DNA of 64,000 nt from Bacteroidetes bacterium 2013_40CM_41_45. GTDB taxonomy: Bacteria > Bacteroidota > Bacteroidia > AKYH767-A > 2013-40CM-41-45. This document shows, piece after piece, positions 4,690 through 10,500 of this stretch (position 1 is its first letter; each line of letters opens with the position of its first letter). The notes beneath the pieces were generated by a model. That model saw only the letters and a program-made list of their open reading frames with translations. It was not told the origin of the DNA and ran no database searches. Both the position numbers and the translations under genes were made by a program. Location of the stretch: positions 124,001 to 188,000 of the forward strand of contig NGFH01000011.1 of NCBI GenBank assembly GCA_002215675.1, in the 5' to 3' direction.

Positions 4690-5496
4690 TTAAATCTGAC
4701 CCATTACATACATGGCTGTGAGCGTTGGTACAGGGCTTCCGCCTTTTTTCTCAAGCGTTACTGCAAATGCCTGTGCCGTTTGGGTTGCTCCCATCTTTTT
4801 GTAGAGTGATGAATCAGCAGAAATATCAAACACGCCCATGTCGACAGGTTTTCCATCCACTATAGCCCATAGCTGGTACTGTTTGTCGGCAGGCGGCTGC
4901 GGAAGATTTGAAACAGAAAGATATACCTCATGATTTTGAGTGTTCCATAAAACGGAAGCCAGCATACCGGGATGTGCCTCCGTTCCTTTCATCATCACTT
5001 TCTTATTATCAGGATTGTTGAGCATCGCCATTTGGCGGTTCATTACTTCGAGCGCGGCTTCCGATTGAGATTTTTCCTTCTGCAATTGTTCAACCTGTTG
5101 GTTTGTAGAAATAAGCTGTGAATTTTTATCGGACAATTGATAGAACAAAACTGAAGACACAATCAACAGTGTTACACTGGCTGCGGCAAGCCAGTAATTG
5201 AACTGACGGTTTGGCGCTTGTGTCCGTTCCATCGTGAAAACTTTTGCCTCTCGCTTTGTTTCACTTTTCTCCAGCGAATCTATTTGAGCAAAAATTTTGT
5301 CGCGCACGCGGGCAGGCGGCTCAACGGCACTTGCCTGTGCATACTGCTCCAGCGATACGCTCAGCGCATCCAGCTCTTTCCGTATTTCAGGATAGATGGA
5401 AGAAATACATTCCACTTCTCTGCGTTCCTGTTCCGAAGCAGTTCCGAGGATGTAGCTCTCAAGAATTCCTGACGATATATATTCTTTTGTATCCAC
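4690..5496 (-). CDS. Anti-sigma factor, RskA-like
   Basis: A 268-residue single-pass membrane protein expected to hold the neighbouring ECF sigma factor inactive. Residues 1-75 form a short helical zinc-free anti-sigma N-terminus (LESYILGTASEQERREVECI). One transmembrane segment spans about 101-119 (YWLAAASVTLLIVSSVLFY). A coiled-coil stretch covers about 122-160. The periplasmic domain has the RskA C-terminal signature YQLWAIVDGKPVDMGVF. The gene starts with GTG at 5494-5496 and lies 11 bases after the sigma gene, the usual order for a sigma/anti-sigma pair. How the signal is sensed or the factor cleaved cannot be told from sequence. Confidence 0.9.
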   Translation of the reverse strand: MDTKEYISSGILESYILGTASEQERREVECISSIYPEIRKELDALSVSLEQYAQASAVEPPARVRDKIFAQIDSLEKSETKREAKVFTMERTQAPNRQFNYWLAAASVTLLIVSSVLFYQLSDKNSQLISTNQQVEQLQKEKSQSEAALEVMNRQMAMLNNPDNKKVMMKGTEAHPGMLASVLWNTQNHEVYLSVSNLPQPPADKQYQLWAIVDGKPVDMGVFDISADSSLYKKMGATQTAQAFAVTLEKKGGSPVPTLTAMYVMGQI

Positions 5497-5507: not shown

Positions 5508-6044
5508 CTAAAATATTTTTCTCAATTCAATAATTGCATTTCGCATCCGTGTCTTCACTGTTCCCAGAGGGATTTTAAGCTCTTCCGAAATTTCTTCCTG
5601 CGTGTATCCGCCATAATATGCCATATCAATAATGATTCGATGTTCCGGTTTCAGTTGCTGCACACTTTGTTTCACTCCTATATGGTCTACCTTCATTGTT
5701 GCGCTGCTTTGCTTATCAACCTGATATACGCTGTCGTCAATACTCTGGATTTGATATTTCTCATGCTTCGCGCGCAATTTATCAATAGCAGTATTGCGTG
5801 TAATATTCAAAAGCCATGTAAATAATCTGCCTTTGGTTTTATCGTAGGAAGAAATATTCTTCCAGATTTTAACGAAGCTCTCCTGCAAAACATCTTCCGC
5901 CACTTCTGCTGAACCGACAATTTTCAGCACAATGCCATAAAGCGTTGATGAATAATTGTCATACAAAATCCGGAATGCATCCTTGTCCCTACTCATTAAC
6001 AAGGTTACCAGCTCGTCTTCGGGGATATTTGTTTTACGGGACAC
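5508..6044 (-). CDS. ECF-type RNA polymerase sigma factor
   Basis: A 178-residue sigma-70 family protein with only regions 2 and 4. Region 2 (about 22-95) contains DNYSSTLYGIVLKIVG, the core-binding VAEDVLQESFVKIWKNI and WLLNITRNTAIDKLRAK. Region 4 (about 122-175) has the helix-turn-helix GGYTQEEISEELKIPLGTVK followed by TRMRNAIIELRK. This organisation resembles the SigK class that pairs with RskA-like anti-sigma factors. GTG at 6042-6044 is the start. It is divergent from the DUF4331 gene; two copies of one bipartite motif before the DUF4331 and TPR genes are its likely targets. I found no copy of that motif before the sigma gene itself. Confidence 0.94.
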   Translation of the reverse strand: MSRKTNIPEDELVTLLMSRDKDAFRILYDNYSSTLYGIVLKIVGSAEVAEDVLQESFVKIWKNISSYDKTKGRLFTWLLNITRNTAIDKLRAKHEKYQIQSIDDSVYQVDKQSSATMKVDHIGVKQSVQQLKPEHRIIIDMAYYGGYTQEEISEELKIPLGTVKTRMRNAIIELRKIF

Positions 6045-6219
6045 GGATTATTAGGAATAGTGCAAAGGAAAAAAAATATACGGACTTATTTCAGTTTAAG
6101 ATTGCCAGGGCACAATTGGGAAGAAAAGGTTGTGAAGACACGAGCCTATGGACAAGGAGATAGTTAGAATTATCGGCAATTGTCTTCAAAAAATTCTTAA
6201 ATATTTTTTGATGTAAAAA

Positions 6220-6244
6220 TCCGAACTGCATGGCGCTCCGTATG
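6220..6244 (+). promoter_or_regulatory. Putative ECF promoter of the DUF4331 gene
   Basis: TCCGAA (6220-6225) and CGTATG (6239-6244) separated by exactly 13 bases, 45 bases before the ATG. The same two hexamers with the same 13-base spacing lie before the TPR gene at 8442-8466, while the intervening bases differ. The CGT-containing -10 is typical of ECF promoters. Inferred to be read by the divergently encoded sigma factor. Confidence 0.7.
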
Positions 6245-6289
6245 TCTGTCTGTTCAACCTTAATCACTAACTGTTAAAAAACAAAAATT

Positions 6290-8377
6290 ATGAAAACAAC
6301 TACAAAAAAAATCCTGAAGTACTTTGCCATTTCAGGTGTTGCACTTACCGCGCTGATTGCCGGTGTGCAATATTATTCCCTGGATGCGTCCAGCCACCGC
6401 GAGGCACCATTGATTGCCAACGACCCGCTCGCTGACAACACCGACTTGTATGCATTCCGCAGTCCGGATGACCCGAACACGGTTACGCTGATTGCGAATT
6501 ACGTTCCCGGAGAACTTCCGCAGGGCGGGCCGAATTATTATTCTTTCGGTGAGGGAGTGCGTTACGAAATTCATATCAAGAATAACGCAGCCACGCAGGG
6601 AGATAATATTATTTACCGTTTCGAGTTCGAGCAAACTAACCAGGACCCGACAACGTTTTTCAACATCCGTCTCGGTCAGCAGAACCTGAAGACGACATAC
6701 AAATGTACGCGCAGCATCAATGGCGGACAGACGTTCCAGACGATTGTGAACAACGGCATCGTTCCCCCGAACAATATCGGGCCGCGTTCCATTACAACCC
6801 CTGTAGGGTTGAATGCTCCATCGTACGATGCGCTACGTGCAAGTGCCATTACAACGGCAAGCACGGGCGAGCAGATTTTCTGCGGACCTAGTGACGACCC
6901 TTTCTTTGTTGACCTGGGCGGTGTGTTCGATTTAGGACAAACACGGGGCAGCAGCGGAGATGCACGTGACGGGCTTGCGTGTAAAAATGTTCATTCCATC
7001 TGCATAAAAGTTCCGATCAGTACTTTGCAGAAAGACCACAAAACGCCGGCGCAGGCAGTCAACATTCTTGACCCTGATTTTGTAATCGGTGTATATGCAA
7101 CAGCCGGCCGTCAAAAACTGACGGTACTCTCTGAGAACGGAAGCAAGCCAAATTTCAATGGCAAGTGGATTCAGATTTCGCGCCTCGGCATGCCGCTCAC
7201 CAATGAAGTGATAATGCCTATAGGTAAAAAAGATTATTGGAATTATCTGAAGCCTTACAATGAAGACACCGCGCTGGAAAAATATTTTACCAATCCTGAG
7301 CTTGCTTTGTACATGGACGACAGCCAGTTTGGCGGTGCAATTCCCGCGCTCTCTGCATTGCGCATACAATCAAACTCTCTACAGGCATTTGATTTCAGAA
7401 ATTATCACAACGGTCTTGCAGGACTTCTTGGAAATCCTGCCACTGCAGGTACTGCATTTGACCAGGCATTGTTCGGCAATTATTTGCTCCGTCCCGGTCA
7501 ACCTCGTTCTGTGGATTTGCTTCCGATTTTCCTGACTGGCGTTCCGAATCTTCCTCCATACCAGCTTGCAACGGGCAAAGGCGGAAACCCGCTGGCAGCA
7601 GGGAAACCGTTTATCAATAATTTTCTTCCCACGTTCGGAGATATGCTTCGCCTTAACATGGCTGTGCCTCCGACCCAGCGTACTGACCCGAATTTTTCTT
7701 CACTCGGTTTAGTGCAGGCAGCAGTTCTCGGGCTAACAGATCCAAACTATAACACTTCAACAGCATTACAATTCATTCCTAACATGGATGGTTTCCCGAA
7801 TGGGAGACGCCTTGAAGATGATGTCACACGCATCGAGCTGCAGGCAGTAAGCGGAATTGTTCTTGCTGCAGTTGGATTGTGGTATGATGATTACACAGCA
7901 GGAGACCCGAACCCTGTAACAACGGATTTAGTGAATGTTCTCTCATATACGACAGGCGTAGAGGCAAATGATTTGCCGTTTACGACATCGTTCCCATATC
8001 TGGCATCGCCTCCCAGCGGTTTCGGAGATTGCGGAGGAACACCCTCATCAGGCGGCAACTTTGCGCCTCCGCAAGGCGGGCAGAGCTCTACCCTGGGTAT
8101 TGCTGCGCCTTCGGTTATGATGATGCAGAATTATCCGAATCCTGCTTCAGGAACTACGGTATTTAAGCTCAGGGTAAAGGATGATGCTGTTCTCACTTTG
8201 AGAATAATTGATGTGAACGGCAAAGAAATTTCCAAACCAATGAATAATAAATTTGTTGGCAACGGCACACATGATATTAGCTGCAATGTAAAGGACTTTG
8301 CAGACGGAGTATATTTTGCAATTCTCGAAATGGGAGGAGAAAGAGTTCAGTATATCAGGTTTGTGGTGGAGAAATAA
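6290..8377 (+). CDS. DUF4331 protein with T9SS type A sorting tail
   Basis: A 695-residue exported protein. It starts with a basic, hydrophobic N-terminal segment (residues 1-30) followed by SSHREAPLIANDP and DNTDLYAFRSPDDPNTVTL, the opening of the DUF4331 family. The function of the domain is unknown. The last ~85 residues, beginning near MMMQNYPNPASGTTVF and including DVNGKEI and FADGVYFAILE, form a T9SS type A C-terminal sorting domain, so the protein is probably carried across the outer membrane and anchored on the surface or released. It is divergent from a sigma/anti-sigma pair, preceded by a putative ECF promoter and followed by a strong terminator. Codon use appears ordinary. No catalytic motif was recognised. 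Confidence 0.92.
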   Translation: MKTTTKKILKYFAISGVALTALIAGVQYYSLDASSHREAPLIANDPLADNTDLYAFRSPDDPNTVTLIANYVPGELPQGGPNYYSFGEGVRYEIHIKNNAATQGDNIIYRFEFEQTNQDPTTFFNIRLGQQNLKTTYKCTRSINGGQTFQTIVNNGIVPPNNIGPRSITTPVGLNAPSYDALRASAITTASTGEQIFCGPSDDPFFVDLGGVFDLGQTRGSSGDARDGLACKNVHSICIKVPISTLQKDHKTPAQAVNILDPDFVIGVYATAGRQKLTVLSENGSKPNFNGKWIQISRLGMPLTNEVIMPIGKKDYWNYLKPYNEDTALEKYFTNPELALYMDDSQFGGAIPALSALRIQSNSLQAFDFRNYHNGLAGLLGNPATAGTAFDQALFGNYLLRPGQPRSVDLLPIFLTGVPNLPPYQLATGKGGNPLAAGKPFINNFLPTFGDMLRLNMAVPPTQRTDPNFSSLGLVQAAVLGLTDPNYNTSTALQFIPNMDGFPNGRRLEDDVTRIELQAVSGIVLAAVGLWYDDYTAGDPNPVTTDLVNVLSYTTGVEANDLPFTTSFPYLASPPSGFGDCGGTPSSGGNFAPPQGGQSSTLGIAAPSVMMMQNYPNPASGTTVFKLRVKDDAVLTLRIIDVNGKEISKPMNNKFVGNGTHDISCNVKDFADGVYFAILEMGGERVQYIRFVVEK

Positions 8378-8402
8378 GCATGTAAAATTTTTTATCGAAA
8401 AG

Positions 8403-8430
8403 AAACCCGTCAGTCGTGGCGGGTTTTTTC
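8403..8430 (+). terminator. Rho-independent terminator after the DUF4331 gene
   Basis: Perfect stem AAACCCG/CGGGTTT (8403-8409 with 8420-8426), 10-base loop, followed by a T-rich run to about 8436. It separates the DUF4331 transcript from the TPR-HupE transcript, which has its own promoter motif directly downstream. Confidence 0.85.
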
Positions 8431-8441
8431 TTTTTTAAAAA

Positions 8442-8466
8442 TCCGAAACGCTGCAGAGTTCGTATG
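8442..8466 (+). promoter_or_regulatory. Putative ECF promoter of the TPR-HupE operon
   Basis: TCCGAA (8442-8447), 13 bases, CGTATG (8461-8466), 31 bases before the ATG of the TPR gene. Identical hexamers and spacing to the motif before the DUF4331 gene. The flanking AAAAA before TCCGAA and AATCACTRAC in the leader are also shared, so an ancient duplication of the leader is an alternative to selection on sigma binding. Confidence 0.7.
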
Positions 8467-8497
8467 TTTTGCTGTTGACCCAAATCAATCACTGACC

Positions 8498-9823
8498 ATG
8501 AAAAAAAATACAGCATACATTTTCCTCTCAGGATTTTTTATCCTCTTTATTGCGCTCATCATTATTTTCGGGCGTGAAGAAAAAATTCCTGAGCTTAAAG
8601 AACGCAGTAAGGAAATTTCCAATTCAACGGAATGGCTCAATACTAAAGCCGCTGTTGAAGGACTTAGAGCAAAGCTGAGAGCGAATCCTGATGATAAGAA
8701 AACCAAACTTAATCTTGCGCTTGCCTATATACAGGAGTCGCGCATCACGGGCAATCATGCGTATTATGACAAAGCATCGCTGCAGCTTATAGATGAAATC
8801 CTCCGCAAGGATGAAAATAATTTTGACGCAGTTTGCGCCAAAGCAACCCTGTTGTTGTCTCAACATCATTTCACAGAAGCTCTTGTTGAGGGCAAACGTG
8901 CGGTTACATTAAATCCATATTCAGCTTTTGGCTACGGGATTCTTACCGATGCAAACGTTGAGCTTGGCAACTATGAGGAAGCGATTCTTGCTGCGGACAA
9001 GATGAATTCCATTCGTCCGGATTTGCGTTCGTATTCCCGCATTTCATATCTGCGGGAAATTTTCGGAGATAATATTGGAGCGCGTGATGCGATGAAGCAT
9101 GCCGTTGAATCGGGTATTCCCGGCCTGGAGCAAACGGAATGGTGCAGAGTTTATTACGGAAAATTATTTGAGCAAACAGGAGACCTGGCCCATGCGCAGG
9201 AACAGTATTTAACATCGCTGAATGACCGTCCCGATTATGCGTATGCTCTCGCAGGGCTTGGAAGAATTGACAAAGCGAAGGGCAATTACCATCAGGCCAT
9301 TGACTACTTTACAAAAGGAAAAATTGTTTTGGCAGATTATTCTTTCAGCGAAGAGCTTGCAGAGCTTTATGATGAGACTAACCAAAAAAGTAAGGCAGAA
9401 CAGGAATTAAATGAGGCGCTGCAATTGCTCGGGGCAAATTCAAAAAGTGAATCGCAAAACATTCACGGGCATTATGCAGACAGGGAACTTGCCTTGCTTT
9501 ATTTGAAGAAAGGCGATTCAGAGCTTGCATTAAAACATGCTCTTTTGGAATGCAACCGCAGGCCGGCTAACATTGATGTGAACCAAGCGCTTGCGTGGGT
9601 TTACTATCAAAGAAAAGAAATGAAAGAAGCGAATAAATGCATTGATGTTTCCCTGAAAACAAATTCAAAAAACCCGGTTTTGCTTTACCGCGCAGGATTG
9701 ATAAAAGCGGGCAACGGATATCTCAATGAGGGAATAGCACTGATGAATGAGGCATTAAACATAAACCCCTTTCTCGATTCAAGACTTAAACGGGAAGGAA
9801 TGCAATATCTCGCTTCAAGATGA
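8498..9823 (+). CDS. Membrane-anchored tetratricopeptide repeat protein
   Basis: A 441-residue protein with an N-terminal membrane anchor or signal (about 7-27, IFLSGFFILFIALIIIFG) and at least eight TPR-like helical pairs after it (for example LNLALAYIQESRI, AVCAKATLLLSQHHFTEAL, YALAGLGRIDKAKGNYHQAI, LLYLKKGDSELALKHAL). TPRs mediate protein contacts; no enzyme domain is seen, so its role is probably scaffolding at the inner membrane or in the periplasm. The stop overlaps the start of the HupE-like gene (ATGA), so the two are translationally coupled. The putative ECF promoter puts it in the same regulon as the DUF4331 gene. Specific function unknown. Confidence 0.85.
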   Translation: MKKNTAYIFLSGFFILFIALIIIFGREEKIPELKERSKEISNSTEWLNTKAAVEGLRAKLRANPDDKKTKLNLALAYIQESRITGNHAYYDKASLQLIDEILRKDENNFDAVCAKATLLLSQHHFTEALVEGKRAVTLNPYSAFGYGILTDANVELGNYEEAILAADKMNSIRPDLRSYSRISYLREIFGDNIGARDAMKHAVESGIPGLEQTEWCRVYYGKLFEQTGDLAHAQEQYLTSLNDRPDYAYALAGLGRIDKAKGNYHQAIDYFTKGKIVLADYSFSEELAELYDETNQKSKAEQELNEALQLLGANSKSESQNIHGHYADRELALLYLKKGDSELALKHALLECNRRPANIDVNQALAWVYYQRKEMKEANKCIDVSLKTNSKNPVLLYRAGLIKAGNGYLNEGIALMNEALNINPFLDSRLKREGMQYLASR

Positions 9824-10500
9824 AAACCGGAAAATATTTTTCAAGAAATAAATTTTTTTTCACAGTAATAATTTTATTGTTGATGTCGCTGTGCGCATCC
9901 GCTCATGTTACTTCTTATGATTTTGCACAGATGAGCAAAGGAGCCATCGGCTGGATTTACCTGCAGCTTGGATTCACCCACATTCTTCCGAACGGTTACG
10001 ACCACGTTTTATTTATTCTCGGATTATTCCTGCTTAGCCCCCGTCTAAAACCGTTGCTTTGGCAGGCGACAGCATTTACGGTTGCGCACAGCATTACCCT
10101 GGGGCTTGCCATGTCTGGAAAAATAAATCCCCTTCCTTCCGTTACCGAGCCGTTGATTGCATTATCCATTGCTTTTGTTGCAGCAGAAAATATTCTCCTC
10201 AACGAATTAAAATGGTGGCGGATTCTTATTGTATTTTGTTTCGGGCTGATTCACGGCTGCGGTTTTGCTACCGCGCTCCAGGAAATGGGACTGCCGGATA
10301 AAGATTTTTTTCTTTCCCTGGTTTCTTTTAATGCAGGTGTTGAGCTTGGCCAAATAACCGTTATAGCAACGGCTTATATCCTTATCGGAAAATGGTTCGG
10401 AGAGAAAGTATGGTACAAAAAGAGAATAGTAATTCCTGTATCTGCAATGATTTCCGCTGTTGCCCTTTACTGGACAGTAGAAAGAATTTTTATCGGCTGA
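9820..10500 (+). CDS. HupE/UreJ family membrane protein
   Basis: A 226-residue integral membrane protein with a cleavable-looking N-terminal segment (about 9-28) and some six further hydrophobic helices. Family signatures are NGYDHVLFILGLFLLS, TAFTVAHSITLGLA and FGLIHGCGFATAL, with conserved histidines likely to bind metal. HupE and UreJ relatives move nickel or cobalt, but no hydrogenase or urease genes are here, so the substrate is open. It overlaps the TPR gene by four bases and is convergent with the HlyD-like gene (2-base gap). Being inside the putative ECF regulon suggests a role linked to the DUF4331 surface protein rather than to hydrogenase assembly. Confidence 0.87.
   Translation: MKTGKYFSRNKFFFTVIILLLMSLCASAHVTSYDFAQMSKGAIGWIYLQLGFTHILPNGYDHVLFILGLFLLSPRLKPLLWQATAFTVAHSITLGLAMSGKINPLPSVTEPLIALSIAFVAAENILLNELKWWRILIVFCFGLIHGCGFATALQEMGLPDKDFFLSLVSFNAGVELGQITVIATAYILIGKWFGEKVWYKKRIVIPVSAMISAVALYWTVERIFIG

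Follow-up and report, generated by a model that had tools for sequence, protein, structure and literature searches.

A predicted SigK/RskA-type regulon of DUF4331, TPR and HupE genes with a possible role in transition-metal capture at the cell envelope

In the genome of Bacteroidetes bacterium 2013_40CM_41_45, genes for an extracytoplasmic function (ECF) sigma factor and an RskA-like anti-sigma factor lie divergently from genes for a DUF4331 protein, a TPR protein and a HupE-like permease. What do these genes do together, and what controls them? We analyzed a window of 64,000 nt that contains this locus (contig NGFH01000011.1, positions 124,001 to 188,000) and compared it to related loci. A sequence-only reading of the window had proposed a compact ECF regulon with two identical promoter motifs, possibly concerned with "metal or envelope stress". 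Our analyses point, with moderate confidence, to an ECF regulon of the SigK/RskA type that would capture and import a transition metal of the copper or nickel type at the cell envelope. The regulation and conservation of the set (motif, linkage, co-occurrence, and predicted termini) are well supported by sequence comparison. We infer the use of the motif by this sigma factor, signal-peptide cleavage, metal binding, the identity of the metal as copper or nickel, and the direction of import.

The genes and regulatory sites of the locus are as follows.

4690..5496, minus strand: RskA_C anti-sigma gene (PF10099, 86.7 bits against a cut-off of 29.4; NF052375 above its cut-off)
5508..6044, minus strand: SigK-like ECF sigma gene (Sigma70_r2 and Sigma70_r4, Pfam)
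6218..6245, plus strand: predicted ECF-type promoter AATCCG-N15-CGTATGT, 5' of DUF4331
6290..8377, plus strand: DUF4331 gene, 695 aa (PF14224, 441 bits, profile positions 1-421 of 421)
8132..8347, plus strand: C-terminal sorting domain of the type IX secretion system (T9SS) in DUF4331, residues 615-686 (PF18962, 33.1 bits; TIGR04183, 31.7 bits)
8400..8429, plus strand: intrinsic terminator hairpin 3' of DUF4331 (13-pair stem followed by a T run; fold z-score -3.8)
8440..8467, plus strand: predicted ECF-type promoter AATCCG-N15-CGTATGT, 5' of TPR-HupE
8498..9823, plus strand: TPR gene with an N-terminal membrane anchor (TPR families by Pfam; hydrophobic segment read from the translation)
9820..10500, plus strand: HupE_UreJ_2 permease gene (PF13795, 157 bits against a cut-off of 24.5)

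Pfam confirmed the gene identities of the sequence-only reading (ECF sigma, RskA-like anti-sigma, T9SS-tailed DUF4331, TPR, and HupE). The sigma factor has Sigma70 regions 2 and 4 and lacks region 3, and its gene adjoins that of the membrane anti-sigma factor, which has one transmembrane segment and an extracytoplasmic RskA_C domain. The top NCBIfam model for the sigma factor was PRK09646 (SigK), at 138 bits, under the curated cut-off of 226. Both sorting-domain scores of DUF4331 (PF18962, Por_Secre_tail, and TIGR04183) exceed their cut-offs, which identifies it as a predicted type A T9SS cargo.

The hexamer pair TCCGAA-N13-CGTATG occurs on the plus strand at 6220-6244 and 8442-8466, and no third copy is present in the window. 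Two matches were reached in none of 100 dinucleotide shuffles of the window (highest shuffle count, 0). The whole genome (3,376,622 bases, 11 contigs) contains just these two exact copies, so the earlier claim that the motif occurs exactly twice, before DUF4331 and before TPR-HupE, holds beyond the window. When one mismatch was permitted, 8 sites were found in the genome and also 8 for the reversed control; thus, only the exact pair stands out. The second copy can be understood because the terminator at 8400-8429 cuts TPR-HupE off from DUF4331.

We then profiled the motif in DUF4331 loci from the family, the order, and the phylum, together with 80 named loci (119 stretches including the window). 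Genes were classified with profiles grown from the window proteins. The duplicate loci L084, L092, L105, and L163 were excluded from locus, neighbor-gene, and ECF-gene counts, leaving 115 loci, and identical DUF4331 proteins were entered once in the upstream-motif and N-terminal X-X-His counts. Motif counts across genes take no account of relatedness. We searched the regions 5' of 145 distinct long DUF4331 genes for TCC-N(k)-CGTA and found it with k=16 in 31 and k=17 in 23, against 0-11 genes (mean ~3.4) at each of the other 28 spacings. This core motif, TCC-N16/17-CGTA, precedes 52 of 97 first-in-cluster DUF4331 genes and none of 45 second genes of tandem pairs (Fisher 5e-12; excluding three long genes with little sequence upstream). 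As second tandem genes should need no promoter, they serve as an internal control. Only 16 of 682 other neighboring genes have the core upstream, which is the level of other spacings (7.8 per spacing; Fisher 1e-39 against 52/97).

Bases that were not selected for are conserved in the 59 instances of the motif: AA ahead of TCC (51/59 and 57/59), a purine behind TCC (57/59), and a T three places past CGTA (52/59), a position not used for selection. G-A-A in TCCGAA and T-G in CGTATG are only common variants. The hexamers, which looked selected to the sequence-only reading, are not the conserved unit. Given the conserved bases outside the selected core, we redefined the element: judged from these instances, it is AATCCR-N15/16-CGTANRT, a predicted ECF-type promoter of a SigK/RskA-type regulon, bipartite with a -10 box of the CGT type and shared by the predicted target genes. 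In this strict form, it matches 59 times in the 115 loci (the reversed pattern matches twice), and 40 of the 59 matches lie before DUF4331. The motif thus recurs at the same spacing upstream of orthologous DUF4331 genes, the check that had been proposed for it.

Other genes of the set carry the core less often. It was found 5' of 10 of 101 TPR genes (p 7e-4) and 9 of 63 TonB receptor genes (p 9e-5), and in none of 40 HupE upstream regions, so the permease has no promoter of this kind of its own. Some further genes near the clusters bear the strict motif. One (L131:3713-7120; motif 46 nt 5' of the start) encodes a secreted protein that combines a copper domain of the plastocyanin type with six CHRD domains and also carries a T9SS tail. 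Another encodes a His-containing protein of ~125 aa located 3' of HupE, with the motif just before it (L085:13205, L088:4496, L142:13231, and L120:14107); the single copy scanned had no Pfam match.

The window genome has seven strict sites, three of them within 2.8 kb around the sigma/anti-sigma pair. Two of the other sites have no gene start closely downstream. The strict motif also lies 14 nt 5' of an MsrA-like lipoprotein gene (L165; G000 C2:87560) and 57 nt 5' of an AlgH-like gene (L164; G000 C2:46968), both named by eye from the translation and both possibly chance matches. Because DUF4331-negative genomes from the order also contain roughly one strict site per Mb, MsrA and AlgH were dropped as regulon targets.

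Two additional sites concern the sigma gene itself.

5724..5751, minus strand: exact motif AATCCA-N15-CGTATAT within the ECF gene, its TCC 253 nt before the anti-sigma start
6076..6103, minus strand: near-consensus AATCT-N16-CGTATAT with one mismatch, 59 nt 5' of the ECF start

A motif at the equivalent place, between the stretches matching sigma regions 2 and 4, is present in 6 of 31 ECF genes that share only 35-57% identity. Synonymous shuffles of the ECF genes gave a mean of 0.30 in-gene motifs and reached 6 in 0 of 1000 trials. A seventh case, with the core motif, was found in G037. We also examined 30 ECF genes chosen independently through their anti-sigma gene, including that of the window. 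Four of them, the window's own among them, have the in-gene copy (shuffle mean, 0.19); it was present in 3 of 10 ECF genes from DUF4331-positive and 1 of 20 from DUF4331-negative genomes (p 0.095), so that a link to DUF4331 is not established in this set. The in-gene motifs ahead of an anti-sigma gene are at 5724-5751 of the window and in L058, L104, L110, L139, L157, L209, L229, and L256. We interpret site 5724..5751 as a candidate internal promoter that probably serves the anti-sigma gene; this minority feature would create negative feedback. Site 6076..6103 is possibly a weak autoregulatory promoter of the ECF gene, and such sites are not above chance across loci. Autoregulation of the ECF gene is not claimed, as the core was found in 3 of 31 ECF upstream regions and no spacing peak appeared with one mismatch. 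Both promoter sites of the sequence-only reading thus stand, joined by more sites inside, and perhaps before, the sigma gene.

Which genes belong to the set? In the 115 loci, the neighbors of DUF4331 are TPR (96), a TonB receptor of ~754 aa (58), HupE (37), ECF (30), and RskA-type anti-sigma genes (28). The window locus is flanked by efflux-adaptor-like and TolC-like genes, neither of which is a conserved neighbor elsewhere. Co-occurrence was profiled in the order, where 28 of 36 genomes examined served as DUF4331-negative genomes. RskA_C was detected in 6/6 DUF4331-positive vs 7/28 negative genomes, HupE_UreJ_2 in 6/6 vs 5/28, and the TonB receptor in 4/6 vs 0/28.

Of 395 genomes sampled from the phylum, 48 have DUF4331, and plasmids from three phyla carry it as well. 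Among 32 plasmid records with DUF4331, we examined 14 (1 from Bacteroidota, 4 from Actinomycetota, and 9 from Pseudomonadota, of which 4 are Pseudoalteromonas). A permease (HupE/UreJ or NicO) follows DUF4331 in 9 of the 14. In the Streptomycetaceae plasmids L200, L260, and L261, a 'nickel transporter' of the NicO family takes the place of HupE after DUF4331-TPR, and it too has a His after its signal peptide. ECF and RskA_C anti-sigma genes lie directly 5' of DUF4331 in 4 of the 14 records, all Pseudoalteromonas, and the core precedes DUF4331 at spacing 16 in two of these four, which are close relatives. The linkage of DUF4331 to an ECF sigma, which the sequence-only reading had put forward for checking, is therefore found in many loci, as an ECF and RskA-type pair, and in Pseudoalteromonas. 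Conservation of the DUF4331-TPR-permease set out to Proteobacteria and Actinomycetota is well supported. The proposed compact system holds across phyla; it is also larger than described, with a TonB receptor and sometimes tandem or split DUF4331 genes.

The split form is frequent in flavobacteria, where a protein of 216-230 aa beginning A|ADHIDAP (or close) is accompanied by a half of 176-189 aa with a lipoprotein-like signal (L073-L081, L083, L098:13591-14807, and L151:385-1636). Split and long forms stand side by side in L098 and L151, each followed by a TPR gene. The core precedes 5 of 13 split-form first genes. In L046:7051-9135, the DUF4331 gene of G004, an in-frame TAG makes the gene read as two pieces, by error or decay. 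L114, titled Williamsia sp. (an actinobacterium), holds a Bacteroidota-like tandem DUF4331-TPR-HupE cluster and is probably a mislabelled bin.

What could such a set handle? The N-termini of the mature proteins offer a clue. In the window, DUF4331 has a predicted signal peptide at residues 1-33, and the alignment places the mature N-terminus at Ser-Ser-His:

6389..6397, plus strand: codons S34-S35-H36, predicted mature N-terminus NH2-X-X-His of the amino-terminal Cu(II)- and Ni(II)-binding (ATCUN) type

An N-terminal NH2-X-X-His is the ATCUN motif, which chelates Cu(II) and Ni(II). In the alignment of DUF4331 proteins, conservation sets in abruptly at Ser-Ser-His. X-X-His comes immediately after the predicted signal peptide in 158 of 158 proteins of a Bacteroidota-dominated set (one further protein, too short before X-X-His, was left out); 147 of the 158 have SSH at this place and 11 have ADH. 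The preceding residue is A, S, or G in 158/158, and the residue one place further back in 2/158. SSH is at the same place in 16 of 16 plasmid DUF4331 proteins from the 14 records (one from Bacteroidota). In an alignment with two split pairs, His3 is the sole His common to the long and split forms. This is what a signal peptidase site freeing NH2-X-X-His would look like, with cleavage predicted from the -3/-1 rule and the alignment. The window HupE has a predicted signal peptide at residues 1-28 (A28|H29), giving a mature N-terminal His (codon 9904-9906). A His directly after the signal peptide was found in 33 of 37 HupE homologues (by a residue rule; five rows read by eye) and in the plasmid permeases of 9/9 loci. 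Thus, two envelope proteins of the set appear to expose a metal-grabbing His at their very first residues. The 'metal or envelope stress' of the sequence-only reading can be narrowed, by inference, to metal handling by N-terminal His of the Cu/Ni type.

N-terminal His in permeases has a precedent. HupE/UreJ-2 permeases with an Ang domain ('anglerases') have a His1 domain that binds Cu (Kd 73.6 nM) and Ni (220 nM), and the most frequent neighbors of N-terminal-His HupE/UreJ-2 permeases are proteins of unknown function (Franco Cairo et al., Nat Commun 2025, PMC12537917). Ang-1 and Ang-2 anglerases are PF13795 permeases with a His directly after the signal peptide, as is the window HupE by the residue rule. 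The permeases of proteobacterial DUF4331 operons share the two-part size and layout of Ang-1, and PF13795 begins at residue 178 in the two proteins scanned. In the parts of PMC12537917 that we saw, neither DUF4331 nor TPR nor a sigma factor is named as a partner.

Capture of a metal could also serve defense. The same set might hold Cu or Ni outside the cell or export it, that is, detoxify or sequester rather than acquire. We consider this improbable: TonB receptors and HupE/NicO permeases serve import, the conserved neighbors in the 115 loci include neither an efflux pump nor a Cu oxidase, and the efflux-adaptor-like and TolC-like genes of the window are not conserved. ATCUN-type sites bind Cu(II) tightly and ECF factors can answer metal excess, both of which count for detoxification. 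So does the finding that, in Sphingobium under excess nickel, no gene was induced more strongly than a HupE/UreJ-like one (PMC5557971).

We also modeled the mature DUF4331 domain. The model from 108 sequences (pLDDT 87.9, pTM 0.91) holds a large beta-rich part, and its N-terminus (residues 1-8) is disordered; a first model from 13 sequences was poor (pLDDT 51) and was discarded. The best VIA-align 2 match (Z 7.8, 204 residues, rmsd 4.9) is at a level that the tool rates as common. By sequence, no solved relative of DUF4331 was found below E 0.06, a match that falls in the sorting-domain part, and none was found for HupE.

Does this regulon resemble known ones? FecI-FecR-FecA-type metal uptake combines an ECF sigma, a membrane anti-sigma, and a TonB receptor, as do some of our loci. 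Our set differs in having RskA_C in place of FecR and a receptor that, in some loci, is itself a target, and no sign of a siderophore system is seen. The permease takes the same operon position as in NicO/HupE nickel-cobalt systems, here coupled to DUF4331 and TPR. The likeness to mycobacterial SigK-RskA (ECF18/ECF19) lies in an ECF gene beside an RskA_C anti-sigma gene, SigK as the top model, and motif-bearing fasciclin genes in two neighboring loci (PMC7509140, PMC9861118). The targets differ (DUF4331-TPR-permease), as does the sigma factor. The Cys pair C133/C183 of SigK is conserved in 94% of ECF18 and 56% of ECF19 (PMC7509140), whereas the translation of the window sigma has no Cys and thus no equivalent pair. 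Bacteroidota ECF promoters are also represented by the SM6 motif of Flavobacterium psychrophilum, which has a CGT -10 box (PMC9723704), and by PorXY-SigP (PMC4800418); their targets are T9SS and envelope genes, and the parts of these papers that we saw do not name DUF4331. Our literature search found no paper on DUF4331 or PF14224, with subscription papers mostly outside the searched literature, and searches on HupE with sigma factors, copper, TonB, or ATCUN found none on this gene set. ECF-controlled metal handling is known; parts of this set are undescribed.

The SigK likeness also suggests a different signal for the same regulon. It could respond to envelope stress (oxidative, light, or surface damage), with DUF4331 as a structural or adhesive protein and the N-terminal His incidental or redox-related. 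Mycobacterial SigK governs fasciclin-type surface proteins, with its signal unidentified (PMC7509140, PMC9861118), and the F. psychrophilum ECF motif with a CGT -10 box is linked to T9SS genes (PMC9723704). Fasciclin genes beside the clusters in L082:1711-2406 (two sites) and L093:7544-8179 carry the strict motif (Pfam was run on one), and so does the MsrA lipoprotein gene of the window genome. However, a strict motif about once per Mb in DUF4331-negative genomes means that the MsrA site may be chance, and in every phylum examined the permease, where present, belongs to a family of metal transporters (HupE/UreJ or NicO). We regard a stress regulon as unlikely, although less so than detoxification.

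Several observations count against a metal-import regulon run by the neighboring sigma factor. On the protein side, Foldseek (best E 0.012) and VIA-align 2 gave no clear fold homologue for DUF4331, with only generic and mostly Ig-like matches, so the fold offers no clue to an enzymatic or binding function. The cleavage sites are predictions from the -3/-1 rule and the alignment. Four of the 37 HupE homologues have no signal peptide, and an N-terminal His is present in only 20 of 64 TonB receptors, which were not used as main evidence. The window HupE is unlike anglerases in having no Ang domain, which it lost or never had, and PF13795 starts from residue 47, with ~18 residues between His1 and the permease domain. 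At the level of the locus, the TonB receptor is absent from the window genome at E 1e-40 (one of two receptor-less positives), and the window locus is marked by neither a metalloregulator nor a metal-dependent enzyme. For the regulation, the core motif is missing from 45 of the 97 first-in-cluster DUF4331 genes, and its presence is independent of a local ECF pair (17/29 loci with vs 40/81 without, p 0.52), so the neighboring sigma factor is no more than a candidate reader of the motif. This independence would fit another ECF factor reading the motif while the neighboring pair governs something else, and CGT-type -10 boxes are common to several ECF factors (PMC9723704). We nevertheless find this very improbable, since 3 of the 7 strict sites of the window genome lie around the pair, one of them in the sigma gene, the in-gene site recurs beyond codon chance, and RskA_C co-occurs with DUF4331.

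Control by the neighboring pair and import of a metal would then work as follows. RskA would let the sigma factor go, and RNA polymerase would read AATCCR-N15/16-CGTANRT promoters. In the window, these would drive DUF4331, then TPR-HupE past the terminator, and probably the anti-sigma gene from the site in the sigma gene. Cleavage by signal peptidase would leave DUF4331, a beta-sandwich protein, with NH2-Ser-Ser-His as a terminal chelate of Cu(II)/Ni(II). In the window, the type IX system would take DUF4331 to the surface, with capture at the surface or in the periplasm; many relatives have a TonB receptor, from a single subfamily, that would bring the metal over the outer membrane. The membrane-anchored TPR protein may hold the parts together as a scaffold, and passage of the metal across the inner membrane would fall to the HupE permease, which has a predicted N-terminal His of its own.

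More tentatively, DUF4331-TPR-permease may be a cross-phylum metal acquisition pathway based on N-terminal His chelates, under SigK/RskA-type control in Bacteroidota and Pseudoalteromonas, in which some sigma genes carry the promoter of their antagonist. The signal of RskA is stated to be unknown (PMC7509140). If our reading is true, metal (Cu/Ni) state would be a candidate for the signal of RskA-type anti-sigma factors, and feedback of this design, with the inhibitor's promoter inside the sigma gene, would be unusual. It would also give DUF4331 its first function and HupE/UreJ-2 permeases with an N-terminal His a home.

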